From assembly GCA_021808105.1 (NCBI GenBank), contig JAKBCC010000021.1:1-42581 (forward strand): a DNA stretch of 42,581 nt. The letters are read 5' to 3'. Origin of the DNA: Planctomycetota bacterium (GTDB lineage: Bacteria > Planctomycetota > Phycisphaerae > WQYP01). The translations under genes and the position numbers were made by a program. Position 1 is the stretch's first letter. Each line of letters begins with the position of its first letter. Positions 13,079-28,752 of the stretch are shown here, piece by piece. The notes beneath the pieces were generated by a model. It saw only the letters and a list, made by a program, of their open reading frames with translations, was not told the DNA's origin and ran no database searches.

Positions 13079-15187
13079 TCAATGCCCAAAGAAGCTCGGC
13101 AGGTCATTAAAGATGGTCACATATAAAAATATACCCGCAATGAGTGTGATGCCCACAAGTTGAATCGCCGTTTGAACCTTCACCGACAGAGGCCGTCCCC
13201 GGATTTTTTCAATTAGCAGCATCACAAACAAACCTCCATCCAGGACCGGCAGAGGCAGGAAATTGATAACCGCCAAATTGACGGAAATTAATCCCAGAAA
13301 ATAAAGCAGCGTCGTATTGCCCATGCTTTCAGATTCATACAAGATCGGCACAATGCCCACCACACCATGCAGTTCATGCGCCGGAACCGTACCGGAACCC
13401 AATCCGCGCAATGTGGAATACGTGCGCAAAATCCAGTTCCAGGTGTGATTTACTCCCATGGCCACAGCACCATACACGCTGTGGCTTTTCTGCACGCGCA
13501 GGGCCGGCAGCAGGGCTAAGCCGACGCGGTAATGATATTGCCGCAGAAAGTTCATCAGTCTGCCGCCCAAAGGCAAGGTCACCGGGGTGGTTTTTCCGGC
13601 AAAAGTTATCTGGATCGTCTGTCCATTGAATTTTTTGGCCAGAGCAAACAGGTCATACCAATTTTTAACCCTTTGCAATTTCGTCAAGGCCATTCCCTGC
13701 GGCCCGATCGCGGATAACGTCGATCCGGGGCTTACCCCCAGAGCCGCCATCCGATGCGACACACTGCCGATGACGGGCGAAGCAAAATCCAGTCCCATGG
13801 CCACGCCCAGAAATCCTTTGCCGGACTGGCTTTGCGGTGTGCAATTGACCGTGATCTGTTTTTTGCCGCGCAACACTTCCACGGCTATTTTTTGTCCCGC
13901 GTTTTCTTCAATGCTCTTCCGGAACGAAGCAATATCCGGATTGGTCAGCGATCCGATTCGTAAAATGACATCGCCGGCGCGCAGGCCGGCCTTGGCTCCG
14001 GCGCTTCCCGCCTCCACGGCGTCCAAAATAATACGGGGATACATCCCCAGAATCGGCGGCATGGAAGTAACCCAACTGCGGGGAAACAGCGTTGCACTGC
14101 CTGTACTGTGATATATTTTCCCGTGCCTGGACCGCAGCGTAAAGTGCATGACGCGGCCATTAGAAGCCTGCATCACCGCATAAAGCTGGCCCCAATCGCG
14201 CACCGCAACGCCGTCGCAAGTCACGATCCGGCAGCCCGGCCTGAATGCCGCCTGATTGGGATCAAGCTTGACAAGCTTTTGATAATTCGACTTGGACATG
14301 GGCGGGATATTTAGCGACGGCGCGGAAGCCACGCCGATCCCAAGTAAGCCGCCGCCCGGAGGGATGACGGCCTGAAGCTCAACATCACGCAATTGCTTGC
14401 TGCCGTTGGGATGATATTGCAGGTTAATGACCTGCCCGCGCCCGCCCAGAGCCGCCGCCATTTGTAAATCAGGAAACTCCAGAAAGCCACGCGGTTTGCG
14501 ATGGTTAATGGAAACAACATCATCCCCGACATGCAAACCGGCCTTTTGAGCCGGACTGTTGTACGCCACAGAGCCAATAATCGCAGGCTGCACCTCTATA
14601 CCCAGACGAAAAACGATGGCAAATACAACAATGGCAAAAAGGATATTCATCGTTACGCCGGCGGAGATAATTACCATGCGCTGCCAGATGGGTTTTTTAC
14701 CAAAGGATGCGGGGTCTTCGCTGACCTTGGCCGGATCCATGTCATCCTGCCCCAACATGCGTACATATCCGCCGAAGGGCAGCCACGCCAGACGATAATC
14801 CGTTTCTCCCAGCACCGGCCTTTTTACCAGATCAGCCGTGTCCACAGAGGCAGTTGGGGCATCAGTTTTAGCCGGCCCGATTTCGACTTCTCCAAATGAA
14901 AACCCCGCTCCTTTTCGCCAGCCGCACAACCGCGGACCAATGCCCACAGCAAAAACATCACAGCGAACGCCAAAGCTCTTGGCCGCGAGAAAGTGCCCCA
15001 GTTCATGAAAGAAAATAACGGACCCAAAGCCCACCAGCACGAGAAGTGATTTCCACACACTTCCGGCTGCCGTGGCCAGGGAATAGGCCAGGACCAGCGG
15101 CAGGCCGATTGAAAACAGCATCACGCGGCCGCGCCTGAGGTTTCGCCGCAATCTGTGAGTTGTGAGTTGAATCTGTCGGGTTGTCAT
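13079..15187 (-). CDS. rseP: RseP-like site-2 membrane zinc metalloprotease with PDZ domains
   Basis: FFHELGHFLAAKSFGVRCDVFAVGIGPRL (HExxH), PDZ-like AGLRAGDVILRIGS, and C-terminal NFLPLPVLDGGLFVMLLIEKIRGRPL. Confidence 0.92.
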   Translation of the reverse strand: MTTRQIQLTTHRLRRNLRRGRVMLFSIGLPLVLAYSLATAAGSVWKSLLVLVGFGSVIFFHELGHFLAAKSFGVRCDVFAVGIGPRLCGWRKGAGFSFGEVEIGPAKTDAPTASVDTADLVKRPVLGETDYRLAWLPFGGYVRMLGQDDMDPAKVSEDPASFGKKPIWQRMVIISAGVTMNILFAIVVFAIVFRLGIEVQPAIIGSVAYNSPAQKAGLHVGDDVVSINHRKPRGFLEFPDLQMAAALGGRGQVINLQYHPNGSKQLRDVELQAVIPPGGGLLGIGVASAPSLNIPPMSKSNYQKLVKLDPNQAAFRPGCRIVTCDGVAVRDWGQLYAVMQASNGRVMHFTLRSRHGKIYHSTGSATLFPRSWVTSMPPILGMYPRIILDAVEAGSAGAKAGLRAGDVILRIGSLTNPDIASFRKSIEENAGQKIAVEVLRGKKQITVNCTPQSQSGKGFLGVAMGLDFASPVIGSVSHRMAALGVSPGSTLSAIGPQGMALTKLQRVKNWYDLFALAKKFNGQTIQITFAGKTTPVTLPLGGRLMNFLRQYHYRVGLALLPALRVQKSHSVYGAVAMGVNHTWNWILRTYSTLRGLGSGTVPAHELHGVVGIVPILYESESMGNTTLLYFLGLISVNLAVINFLPLPVLDGGLFVMLLIEKIRGRPLSVKVQTAIQLVGITLIAGIFLYVTIFNDLPSFFGH

Positions 15188-23831: not shown

Positions 23832-24100
23832 GATGGCGAGCACCAGGCCGCGACTTTGTGGTTATGGCGCTCTTGTGCGGCCTGTTTTCCGGCGCGCGGG
23901 GCGGTGGGTTAGACGGTTATTTTTTACTCAACGTCAACACCCATTTTCGATTGTGGTGGATATCAAGGTGGCCAAGGCGGCCAAGGTGTCCAAGTTGCGG
24001 GGGGTGGGTGGCCAGGTTGGGCATGTGGAGGAAGCGGTTGATTTTAGCGGGTTTGGTTGAAGGTGGCCAAGAGGGCCAAGTTATTTTAAGTTTTAGTCTT

Positions 24101-24128
24101 TAGGAGTTAGAAGTTAGGAGTTAGAAGG
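24101..24128 (+). repeat. Heptanucleotide tandem repeat (TAGRAGT), four units
   Basis: taggagt tagaagt taggagt tagaagg. Confidence 0.85.
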
Positions 24129-24171
24129 CTCTGAAGCGCTGCGCTGCTGTTTTGCTTTATGCGCTATGCAG

Positions 24172-24192
24172 GGTTACAGGTTACGGGTTATA
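24172..24192 (+). repeat. Heptanucleotide repeat (GGTTACA-type), three units
   Basis: ggttaca ggttacg ggttata. Same family, inverted, at 37277-37304. Confidence 0.75.
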
Positions 24193-24278
24193 GGGGACAG
24201 CCGAAAAAGGGGATGAGCCACAGAGATCACAGAGGCGACGGAGGAATTGAACCACGGATTGCGCGGGCATCGGGCGGC

Positions 24279-24354
24279 GGCCCGATAGAGCAGTAGACAT
24301 GAGAGAGTTGAAAGTCGAGCAAATTTGGATGGCACAGAAGAGAGGCTGTCGCCA
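24279..24354 (-). repeat. Inverted partial copy of the 3918-4220 repeat unit
   Basis: GGCCCGATAGAGCAGTAGACATGAGAGAGTTGAAAGTCGAGCAAA...GAGGCTGTCGCC matches the reverse complement of GGCGACAGCC...TTTGCTCTACTTTCGACTCTCT...CTGCTCTATCGGGCC. Confidence 0.85.
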
Positions 24355-24380
24355 TTATTCACTTTTCAAAGGTGCGCAAT

Positions 24381-24401
24381 GATCACGGATCACGGATCAC
24401 G
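24381..24401 (+). repeat. Heptanucleotide repeat GATCACG x3
   Basis: gatcacg gatcacg gatcacg, perfect. Confidence 0.9.
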
Positions 24402-24603
24402 GAACAATATTTTCGGGGGGCTATAGGGCGCGGGCTTAATGAGTAATGGGCAGTAATTTCAGTATTGATCAGTACATTCAGTATTGGGCAGTATGTTCAG
24501 TACATTCAGTGATGAGCGGTACGTTTGGGGGTGGCGATGGGGTGGGATTTTGGGGGGCGGAAGTGGGTTGGTGGGGTGGTTGTGGCGGGGGCGGGGCGAG
24601 TTT

Positions 24604-24624
24604 AATGGGTAATGAGTAATGAAT
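24604..24624 (+). repeat. Heptanucleotide repeat (AATGAAT family), three units
   Basis: aatgggt aatgagt aatgaat. Same family as 880-921. Confidence 0.8.
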
Positions 24625-24840
24625 AAAAGCGAGGGAGGGTACGCTCCAGTGTTGGGCGGTGGGTTGGGTGTTGGCGGTTAGGGCTTATCGTGCCCTTCAG
24701 GGGGGCTGCGGTTTGCCAGGGGGCATAGGTAAGTAAATGTAGATGGCGCTTTTGTTTCACACGGATTTGGGCAAATGTTTACGGAGATTGGGGCGAGCAG
24801 GCTGGAAGCCTGCACCACAATGGGGACGTCTTCTGCAATG

Positions 24841-25215
24841 TCACTGTTCTTCAAATCCGTAAGTCTCGAATTTCAATGTCCGGCAGTTTTCGGTCACGTC
24901 GCGGATGGTTTTATCCGAAACGTTTTCGGCCAGATCGGCGTGGATTTCCAAGGTGATTTCGACGTTTGCTCCCAGCAAGCCGGTCAGGTGCTGGACAACC
25001 TCTTCGGCGATGCGTGCAGCGTCACGTCCCAGCCGCAACGGGTCAATCTTGACGGACCCGTGGAAACGGCGGAGTTGCGGCACTGCCTGCCTCGTGCCAG
25101 GCTGACCGGTGCCGCCCGAGGAATCCGCTGGCACCTCGCGGCCGCTCGTCCCTTGCAGGGCTGCGAGGTTTGCGAGAGGACCAGAACTACCAGCGGCAGC
25201 GGCGTCCGCATCCAT
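24841..25215 (-). pseudogene. Remnant: C-terminal tail of a DUF499-type AAA+ ATPase
   Basis: PQLRRFHGSVKIDPLRLGRDAARIAEEVVQHLTGLLGANVEITLEIHADLAENVSDKTIRDVTENCRTLKFETYGFEEQ resembles the conserved C-terminus of DUF499 proteins that accompany DUF1156 methylases. No ATPase core is present. Confidence 0.65.
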
Positions 25216-25928
25216 TGGCCGTAGTAACGCACATCTTCGGCCAGGCCTTGGGCACCGGTCCAGCCGTCTTCGAGTCTCATGTTAGATTCCGGATTCACCG
25301 GCGCTTTGCCCGCAAACTTCGGCGGTATTTCAATGAGGGCTTTGGTGATCAGCACGGGCACCGGGTTAAGGTCGCTGCCGAAGGCCCGCAGCCCCAGCCG
25401 CTGAGCCTCCAATGGAATGCTGCCGCCACCGCAGAAGGGATCCAGCACCGGCGGCGCGTGCGCAATAAGGAATTGATTCACCGAGGCGGGCTTGGCCAGG
25501 CGTGAGATAAAATTCCATACGGAGTCGCCGCAGATAGTCTGATGCCTCGACCATTGCTTGGAGTCGTAAACTTTTGCCGACGCGATGGAAGCGGCAATTT
25601 CAGCGCGGGCCTGATTGAGCACCTTTTCGTTATTGGAGTTTTCCCATTTGACAAGTTCTTCAATGATATTGAACAGTTCAGCCCGCCGCATCCCGGCGCG
25701 TTCCACATCCACCGTGCCGTCCGACTTGCGGAACTGTGGATCAGAATCAGGATCATCCACCATCGCGGCAAAGAGTACAGCGCGGCAGGCCGCCAACGGG
25801 CGAGGTGCCCACCATATATGCATCGCACGGGGATGGTTCCGTATGAACGGCTCCTTTTCGCGCGCTGAGGCAAGTTTAATTTTCTCCAGCGGCAGGGCCA
25901 CTTCAATGAGTTTTTTGCGGTAGGTCAT
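25215..25928 (-). pseudogene. 5' remnant of a DUF1156-type adenine-specific DNA methylase
   Basis: MTYRKKLIEVALPLEKIKLASAREKEPFIRNHPRAMHIWWAPRPLAACRAVLFA...PPVLDPFCGGGSIPLEAQRLGLRAFGSDLNPVPVLITKALIEIPPKFAG...GLAEDVRYYGQWMR is typical. The ORF then runs out of frame through the DUF499 tail to 24984. Confidence 0.8.
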
Positions 25929-27046
25929 TTCTTATTCTTCCTTGCCGGTTTGGCCCCTCGTTGTTTTCTGCGTGCGGAGGCAGGCTTGCTGGGCAGCAGA
26001 GCCTGGCGGCGTGTTGACTCATAGAACTCATGCAGTTTCGCCTGAAGCAGTTTCTTATCTGGCAGGCGGGTTTGGTACTCCGCAACCAAGGCCGGTGAAA
26101 CAGAGCGGCTTAAGGCATACTCGACCACCTCGTGATCTTTGGTGGCACACAGCAGCAGGCCAATAGCGGGATTCTCATGCGGTTTTTTCACGTCCCGGTC
26201 CAGCGCTTCCAGGTAAAACTCAAGTTTGCCGAGATACTCGGCCTGAAATTCGTCAATTTTCAGTTCGATATCCACCAGACAATTCAGGCCACGGTGAAAG
26301 AAAAGCAGATCAATCTCGAAATCCCGGCCGCCGACCTGGATTGGGTAATGACTGCCGACAAAGCAGAAGTCACGCCCCAACTCGATCAGAAAATCCTTGA
26401 GTTTGGCGACCAGGCCGTCATGAAGATCGGCTTCGGAATGGCCCTTGGGCAGCCCAAGGAACTCGATGAGATAGCTGTCCTTGAAGACCGCTGCGGCGGC
26501 GGGATGAATTTCTCTCACCGGTGGTGCGAGTTTTGCGGGGGAAAGGACGACCCGTTCGAATAGGGCGCCAGCAAGCTGCCGTTCAAGTTGTCGCTTGCTC
26601 CATCGTTCCTGAACACACATTCGGAGGTAAAACGCCCTCTCTTCATTCCGCTTACTTCGGCCCATGATGAGGAGGTTGTGAGTCCACGATAATGCCCTCA
26701 CCAGTGCTGAGAGTCTTGGCCGGCTGCGATAGGTCTCGAAAAATTGGCGCATCCGCCAGAGATTTTGGGCCGAAAAACCGCGGGCATTAGGCTCTCGGCG
26801 CTGGATATATTCAGCCAAGGCCGCCACAGTCCCCTGTCCCCATCCATCGGCGGCTATTTTCCGGCTGATATACTCACCAATCGACCAATACAGGTCAATC
26901 AAGGCCGTATTGACGGCGGCGACAGCGCCCGTGCGAGCGGCCTGGATCAAGGCAAGTATCTCATCGAAGTCGACTTGTGCCAATGCGTTTGCTGCGACTG
27001 GTGCTGACGCGGCCGGGGCGGAGCGTAGTATCGTTCTCATTTTCAT
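25925..27046 (-). CDS. DUF1016/YhcG-like PD-(D/E)XK nuclease family protein
   Basis: DLYWSIGEYISRKIAADGWGQGTVAALAEYIQRREPNARGFSAQNLWRMRQFFETY, LSWTHNLLIM, ERAFYLRMCVQERWSKRQLERQL, FLIELGRDFCFVGSHYPIQVGGRDFEIDLLFFHRGLNCLVDIELKIDEFQAEYLGKLEFYLEALDRDVKKPHENPAIGLLLCATKDHEVVEYALSRS. Complete. Confidence 0.93.
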   Translation of the reverse strand: MKMRTILRSAPAASAPVAANALAQVDFDEILALIQAARTGAVAAVNTALIDLYWSIGEYISRKIAADGWGQGTVAALAEYIQRREPNARGFSAQNLWRMRQFFETYRSRPRLSALVRALSWTHNLLIMGRSKRNEERAFYLRMCVQERWSKRQLERQLAGALFERVVLSPAKLAPPVREIHPAAAAVFKDSYLIEFLGLPKGHSEADLHDGLVAKLKDFLIELGRDFCFVGSHYPIQVGGRDFEIDLLFFHRGLNCLVDIELKIDEFQAEYLGKLEFYLEALDRDVKKPHENPAIGLLLCATKDHEVVEYALSRSVSPALVAEYQTRLPDKKLLQAKLHEFYESTRRQALLPSKPASARRKQRGAKPARKNKK

Positions 27047-27198
27047 GCCGGTTCCCGTGCCATGGTCAATAGCTTTTCCAGATCATAATTTACGCTAGTG
27101 GCCTTAAAATCCGGTTCCTTGTCGAACGGCTCACGGACATAATGCACGGTCATTTTCCCCTCGTCAATGCAGACAACGGCCAGGAGGACAATAAAGGC
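27043..27198 (-). pseudogene. C-terminal remnant of the gene originally upstream of DUF1016
   Basis: Open frame AFIVLLAVVCIDEGKMTVHYVREPFDKEPDFKATSVNYDLEKLLTMAREPA*, whose TGA overlaps the DUF1016 ATG (ATGA 27043-27046). No start of its own. Confidence 0.5.
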
Positions 27199-27320
27199 GG
27201 CGGATTCAGATCCACACTGGCGTCAAATAGCGCCATCGAAAGCCTGTCGAGTCCCTGCGGTTGCCGTTTACGCGTTAATTCGTGGGCGAAATATTTTGCG
27301 TGGTATGGTGTCAGTGTCAT
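27190..27320 (-). pseudogene. N-terminal remnant of a SNF2-type helicase
   Basis: MTLTPYHAKYFAHELTRKRQPQGLDRLSMALFDASVDLNP closely resembles the N-terminus of helicases in DUF1156/DUF499-type loci, where it precedes HQVDAALFAF...ADEVGLGKTIEAG. Here it is cut off right after DLNP. Confidence 0.6.
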
Positions 27321-27627
27321 AATGCTTTCCACGTCCCGCTGTTGTCTATGACATTGGGGTTTCACCAGTCGCTGTATGGGACACACTATATTCAACTATT
27401 GCAAATAATGCACATCATCTTGTGGCTTGGGGTGGACAATCGCGGGATTGTCGCACTTCCAGGAGCCTTTCCGAGTAATGGCGGGGATGCGACGGCGTGA
27501 TGTTTGACCTGTTGGGTCGCGTCGCGGCATAGGGCACTGTGGTGATAAATCGCGGGTTGGTTGGCGGCACTGGATCAACCACCGGATTCATCATCCGGTG
27601 CTCCCGGGCGGGGCAGCATAGGAGCGA

Positions 27628-28752
27628 CTATGGGGAGGGGGTTGTGGAATCGAGCATGGATTCGAGTTGGCGTTCGCGGGCCAGGTCACGCAGGGCCAGT
27701 AAAAGGTCGGACATTTCGCCGGCGACGATGTTCTCCAGCGGGAAGTTGCGGTTCAGGCGGTGGTCGGTCAGGCGATTCTGGGGGAAGTTATAGGTGCGGA
27801 TGCGTTCGTTGCGATCACCGCTGCCGATCATTTCACGGCGTGCATCGGAACGCTGAGCGCGACGCTGCTGGTCAAAGAATTCAAAAACCCGGGATCGTAA
27901 AATGCGCCAGGCTTTGTCCCGGTTTTTATGTTGGCTGCGCTCATCGCGCATACGCACGGTAATGCCCGTGGGCAGATGCGTTAATTGCACGGCGGACTCG
28001 ACTTTATTAACATTCTGGCCGCCCGGCCCGCCCGCCCGCGAAACATCCTCGCGAACATCCGCGGGATTTATTTCAATGGCGGATACGTCTGGTTCCGGCA
28101 GGACTGCCACGGTGGCGGCGCTGGTGTGAACGCGGCCCTGCGTTTCCGTTTCCGGCACACGTTGTACGCGGTGGCCTCCGGATTCCATGGCCAGCAATTC
28201 CACGACGCCGGAGCCACGGACGTTGGCGATGAATTCGCGAAAGCCTCCATGTTCCGTGGCGGAAAAATCCAGCACATCAAAGCGCCAGTTGTTTTTTTCA
28301 CTAAATCGCCGATACATATCCGCGAGATCCCTGGCAAACAATGCGGCTTCATCTCCGCCAGTGCCGGCGCGAATTTCCAGCATCATGGAATCGAAACTGC
28401 CTCGCTGGCCGGCGAGAAATTCATCCAGCAACTGATCCAGCAAGGGATCGATTTGCTGATTGAGTTCCAACAACTGCGCCGCCGCCAGATCACGGAAGTC
28501 CTGGTTTTCCGCGGCGTCATCCGCGATCTGCTGGGCTTCTACGGCATCGGCATGAAGCTTGAGATAGGTGCGATACAGGGTAAGCGCTTTTTCCAGCCGC
28601 CCGTTTTCGCGTGATAATTCCACCAGTCTGGCGGAGTTGGTGGTTGCACCGGCTTCTTCCAGTTCACGTTGTACGGCCCCCTGCCGCTCATTCATGCCGT
28701 GGAGCTTTCTCAGCACCAGTTCATGACCCTTTGTGCGCACCGTGTCTGACAT
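27628..28752 (-). CDS. prfA: Peptide chain release factor 1
   Basis: GGHRVQRVPETETQGRVHTSAATVAVLPEPD, RAGGPGGQNVNKVESAVQLTHLPTGI, RIRTYNFPQNRLTDHRLN. Confidence 0.95.
   Translation of the reverse strand: MSDTVRTKGHELVLRKLHGMNERQGAVQRELEEAGATTNSARLVELSRENGRLEKALTLYRTYLKLHADAVEAQQIADDAAENQDFRDLAAAQLLELNQQIDPLLDQLLDEFLAGQRGSFDSMMLEIRAGTGGDEAALFARDLADMYRRFSEKNNWRFDVLDFSATEHGGFREFIANVRGSGVVELLAMESGGHRVQRVPETETQGRVHTSAATVAVLPEPDVSAIEINPADVREDVSRAGGPGGQNVNKVESAVQLTHLPTGITVRMRDERSQHKNRDKAWRILRSRVFEFFDQQRRAQRSDARREMIGSGDRNERIRTYNFPQNRLTDHRLNRNFPLENIVAGEMSDLLLALRDLARERQLESMLDSTTPSP

Follow-up and report, generated by a model that had tools for sequence, protein, structure and literature searches.

A probable recent gutting of an Hma defence operon that spared its DUF1016 nuclease gene in a Planctomycetota bacterium

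The Hma system, which consists of the helicase HmaA, the methylase HmaB and the ATPase HmaC, received its name in the PADLOC publication (PMC8565338) and has been reassigned as the type-1 form of the DUF499-centred BREX-related (BR) systems (PMC12839542). DUF1016 is absent from the main text of both papers, and YhcG from that of the second. The fixed place of a DUF1016 gene within intact Hma operons therefore appears to be little described, at least in these main texts, and the novelty of the arrangement is provisional. In PADLOC the DUF1016/YhcG family is represented by the candidate system PDC-S02, a solitary gene whose product has DUF1016_N and YhcG_C domains. The protein described here has both domains at full length, but its gene is the second of an Hma operon and is translationally coupled to the helicase.

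The locus lies on the minus strand, from 27320 down to 24841, of a 42,581-nucleotide stretch of DNA from a Planctomycetota bacterium that is referred to here as the window. It opens with 40 codons from the start of a DrmD-like helicase gene (27201–27320), followed by the last 47 codons of hmaA (27043–27186), which are out of frame with the helicase start. This tail matches positions 1126–1172 of 1176 in profile PDLC00659 (E 9e-11) and shares 65–74% amino acid identity with the HmaA tails of G018 and G017. Next comes an intact gene for a 373-residue DUF1016/YhcG PD-(D/E)XK nuclease (25925–27046), across which a profile search recovers both PF17761 and PF06250 at full length (DUF1016_N, E 1e-42; YhcG_C, E 3e-55). 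Its residues FEIDLLF...DIELKI fit the D...ExK active site, and its nearest relatives in named genomes are 60–82% identical. Codons 1–241 of hmaB, the DUF1156 methylase (25206–25928), match positions 8–231 of 967 in PDLC00660 (E 3e-78) and have 74% DNA identity to hmaB of G018; the methyltransferase motif DPFCGGG is kept and the remainder is lost. The final piece consists of 121 C-terminal codons of the DUF499 ATPase gene hmaC, comprising a linker and an RRM-like domain (24841–25206), which matches positions 842–941 of 941 in PDLC00662 (E 8e-22, at 24841–25146) and is 71% identical in amino acid sequence to HmaC of G017. Because the E-values of the pieces run from about 1e-10 for the short hmaA tail to 1e-129 for DUF1016, and stops are absent, these are not chance matches.

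The helicase start, the hmaA tail, DUF1016 and hmaB are joined by an unbroken chain of ATGA overlaps, in which the hmaA stop overlaps the DUF1016 start. The original prediction, made from the letters alone, had read the region as a decayed helicase-methylase-ATPase defence locus with a complete DUF1016/YhcG gene in its middle, preceded by a helicase C-terminus, followed by the first part of a DUF1156 methylase and the end of a DUF499 ATPase, and coupled through overlapping stops and starts. The profile matches to the Hma/type-1 BR models bear this reading out piece by piece, and the overlaps are plain in the sequence.

Compared with described Hma systems, each stub matches its own model and the order hmaA, hmaB, hmaC is that of L155 and G018:C190, the latter being an intact relative of the HEPN-DUF499 form. 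Homology and gene order thus place the origin of the locus in Hma. The difference is that its three genes are truncated beyond function and that hmaA and hmaB are separated by the gene for a DUF1016 nuclease. HmaA, whose type-1 form has a C-terminal nuclease domain, is down to about 47 codons, with helicase and nuclease domains gone; hmaB retains 241 of approximately 970–1480 codons; and of HmaC only the C-terminal domain is left, the AAA+ part having been lost. Judged from these missing cores, the Hma system itself is predicted to be unable to work, and loss of phage defence by the locus is expected.

The helicase pieces at the upstream end do not come from a single gene. The original prediction had taken the first ~42 residues as a helicase N-terminus, which they are, but of a gene other than the one that supplied the tail. 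Intact HmaA proteins (G018:C190 and G017:C62) start with MA(R/T)LEEITRG and have no meaningful similarity to the 40-residue piece, which is instead 87% identical in amino acid sequence to the intact helicase starts in G024:C24, G023:C99 and G002:C166. The best PADLOC model for those helicases is DrmD (PDLC02619, E 7e-193). We therefore rejected a single helicase gene with its core removed, since HmaA starts differently and each end derives from a different helicase; junction 1 accordingly fuses two systems. DNA alignments with both parents leave about 14 bp at the junction (27187–27200) assignable to neither, and the DrmD-like frame runs past its 40 codons into nonsense, with a stop at 27150. 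The operon of origin, as in L143 (G024:C24), also encodes homologues of a type III methylase and a type III restriction endonuclease; its helicase start is the most upstream piece of the window locus, but no other part of it was found in the remnant, neither methylase nor restriction endonuclease. We infer that a DrmD-like operon stood upstream of hmaA before the deletion; among the genomes searched, none was found with the two in tandem.

The three contigs with intact DrmD-like helicases, L143, L144 (G023:C99) and L145 (G002:C166), which are about 33–45 kb long and come from three genera, share at least 17 kb at 100% identity. This stretch carries a T2SSE/VirB11-like ATPase and the operon of DrmD-like helicase, type III methylase, HEC-01A-like gene and type III restriction endonuclease, and reflects either very recent transfer or shared contamination.

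At junction 2, where hmaB passes into hmaC, approximately 7.5 kb are absent relative to G018:C190 and G017:C62. Homology to hmaB stops at 25203–25207 and DNA homology to hmaC resumes at 25080; because the hmaC linker between them is hypervariable, the junction can be placed only approximately, at about 25203–25209. This falls within the 25195–25220 interval forecast for a deletion endpoint, and the proposal of at least two internal deletions is supported. Alignments across the junctions did not pin down any microhomology, the closest relatives being just ~75% identical and the linker hypervariable. The further proposal that the cores went while the outer ends of each gene stayed is true only loosely: the helicase ends derive from two genes, hmaB keeps its front only and hmaC its back only, which is the pattern that two deletions with random endpoints leave.

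Among the relatives of DUF1016 found in named genomes, the order hmaA-DUF1016-hmaB is seen in four Planctomycetota contigs (L150, L154, L155 and L156), with hmaC full or nearly full in L154 and L155, while the L150 contig ends inside hmaC. The same hmaA-DUF1016-hmaB(-hmaC) set is found in G211 (L244; G211:C59), from the window's own class. In all four contigs the helicase stop and DUF1016 start overlap as ATGA, as they do in the window. Since intact hmaA-DUF1016-hmaB-hmaC operons exist elsewhere, DUF1016 was already in second position before gutting, and the window copy is an inherited operon member rather than an insertion into the operon. The slot is not exclusive to it: in G018:C190 and G017:C62 it is taken by a gene of about 550 amino acids, which in G018:C190 combines a Schlafen AlbA_2 domain with HATPase_c_4; a Fic gene separates hmaB from hmaC there. 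In L157 a DUF1016 gene is ATGA-coupled behind a DrmD-like helicase rather than HmaA.

In a tree of 83 DUF1016 proteins the window protein groups with that of G009, which lies behind a gutted hmaA (99/82). Both belong to a six-member clade (100/97) that includes the L150 locus, with its hmaA-DUF1016-hmaB operon, and three loci at which no Hma genes were detected, so linkage to Hma has arisen or disappeared on more than one occasion. Slot and family together suggest that DUF1016 may act as a second effector. It is possible, though we hold this only tentatively, that the DUF1016/YhcG nuclease serves as a portable second effector, ATGA-coupled behind different helicases, sharing its slot with Schlafen AlbA_2 genes and outliving the operon once the core has gone.

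The whole insert spans 23833–27645, about 3.8 kb, as delimited by blastn against the empty prfA site of four genomes of the same genus (G003, G004, G006 and G007). In these prfA leads straight into the next gene, a gap of only about 20 bp separating its end from the sequence at window position 23832; a short spacer also follows prfA in G005. As the site is empty in four congeners, the insert was acquired in this lineage. Towards its edges the insert consists of repeats that are dispersed through this genome, 27514–27608 among them. A mobile element bounded by terminal repeats was considered and rejected, as no convincing inverted or direct repeats were found at the insert ends and the flanks are dispersed genomic repeats. 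The repeat at 27514–27608 is about 90 bp long, contains the inverted repeat CACCGGAT...ATCCGGTG, has tens of copies in the genome, and occurs as several tandem copies after prfA in G002. Repeats of window 23833–24840 also lie on both sides of a DUF499 locus on another contig of this genome (G000:C8 13275–13381 and 30209–30978), which is distinct from the window locus and apparently intact.

None of the approximately 449 stub codons is a stop. In simulated neutral decay the first disabling change in the stubs came after a median of 23 substitutions without indels, or 3–9 with modest indel rates, and DNA divergence between this lineage and its nearest relatives is about 25%. That the stubs are open despite this divergence makes the gutting recent on that scale. 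Pairwise NG86 dN/dS values of the DUF1016, hmaB and hmaC pieces against relatives are 0.04–0.23, like those of other copies, with dS often saturated; the hmaA tail gives 0.20–0.37, although its 47 codons are too short to judge. These low ratios are explained by recent loss: the gutting is simply recent. For the same reason the intactness of DUF1016 is no argument for its selective retention, an idea that we tried and dropped: the stubs are just as open, and apart from the hmaA tail just as low in dN/dS, so that the original prediction that the gene is either independently functional or next to go does not follow from its survival. Independent function is nevertheless plausible, given the PADLOC single-gene candidate and the many close DUF1016 relatives that have no Hma genes nearby.

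Those relatives also lend something to a different reading, that the stubs are a selected leader in which the 5' end and the hmaA tail, together with the coupling, drive translation of a now-solo nuclease. The unbroken ATGA chain would suit it, as would the persistence of an hmaA tail directly before DUF1016 in two other genomes: 72 residues precede an intact DUF1016 in L169, a Kuenenia-labelled MAG, after an apparent transposase insertion, and in G009 the DUF1016 gene follows an in-frame hmaA fusion of about 46 codons (~34 N-terminal and ~10 C-terminal residues). We take the L169 transposase to be ISAs1-like. However, the DUF1016 so spared in G009 is itself frameshifted, that of G002 is reduced to its middle with both ends lost (31 hmaB residues are left there), the hmaB and hmaC stubs are equally well preserved although of no use for DUF1016 expression, and the loci were partly found through DUF1016 searches, which biases the sample. 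We consider such a leader unlikely.

An assembly artefact, in which the junctions join reads of different loci or strains while the cell holds an intact operon, is somewhat less likely still. The junctions are known only from a draft metagenome-type assembly of 216 contigs, but the missing cores are on no other contig of this 94.6% complete assembly, the distinct DUF499 locus on C8 and an hmaA fragment with stops on C179 excepted; the junctions have no long repeat able to trap an assembler; and similar gutting is seen in separate assemblies. Least probable of all is a role for the short pieces as functional small proteins, such as a free RRM-like domain from the DUF499 C-terminus. In G022:C126 an hmaC C-terminal stub is indeed cut near the same domain boundary, and the dN/dS of the window's hmaC piece is low, as recent loss would also make it. 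The sequence upstream of the G022 stub is unrelated and lacks a shared start, however, and that genome holds further Hma debris (hmaA residues 1–237 before stops, and a split hmaB tail).

Partial erosion of Hma is independent and recurrent, with cases in G009, G022, the Kuenenia-labelled MAG and contig C179 of the window's own genome, where an hmaA fragment with stops covers residues 2–114 and then 324–357 (L115:6024–6443). Two contigs of G018 (C123 and C171; L036:1549–2178 and L037:3088–3717) have in the hmaA-hmaB slot a 209-residue DUF1016 without the YhcG_C nuclease domain, its in-frame gap corresponding to window residues ~148–304. In L044 (G096) an Hma locus is decaying through frameshifts in hmaA, hmaB and hmaC, not large deletions. 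Short N-terminal hmaB fragments of about 40–70 codons recur (L050:7279–8424, L040:6838–6957, L051:8583–8741 and 14196–14369), and those in L050 and L040 adjoin a putative HepT gene, named by eye.

The window locus is thus very probably a recently inactivated hmaA-DUF1016-hmaB-hmaC operon, acquired at prfA and cut by at least two deletions that spared DUF1016. An Hma operon, intact or already gutted, would have arrived at the 3' end of prfA beside or fused with a DrmD-like helicase operon. One illegitimate deletion would then have taken out the whole interval separating codon 40 of the DrmD-like helicase from the final 47 hmaA codons, and another the back of hmaB with the front of hmaC, leaving DUF1016 between them and hence spared. 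Plain decay, with DUF1016 lying by chance between two deletions, explains the locus best, and selection for DUF1016 is possible. The unbroken series of overlapping starts and stops that leads from 27320 to the DUF1016 start would still allow synthesis of the nuclease, although its expression and any selection on it are inferred.

Taken as a whole, the locus shows the ordinary decay of an already known type of defence system. What is less known, going by gene arrangement, is that DUF1016 occurs in second position, coupled through ATGA to one or the other of two defence helicases. The window offers a snapshot of the loss of a large defence operon, acquired where several congeners have an empty site and cut by deletions so recent that the stubs are open, while the operons of L155, L156 and G211:C59, in which what is usually a lone nuclease is the second Hma gene, provide testable material on the role of DUF1016.
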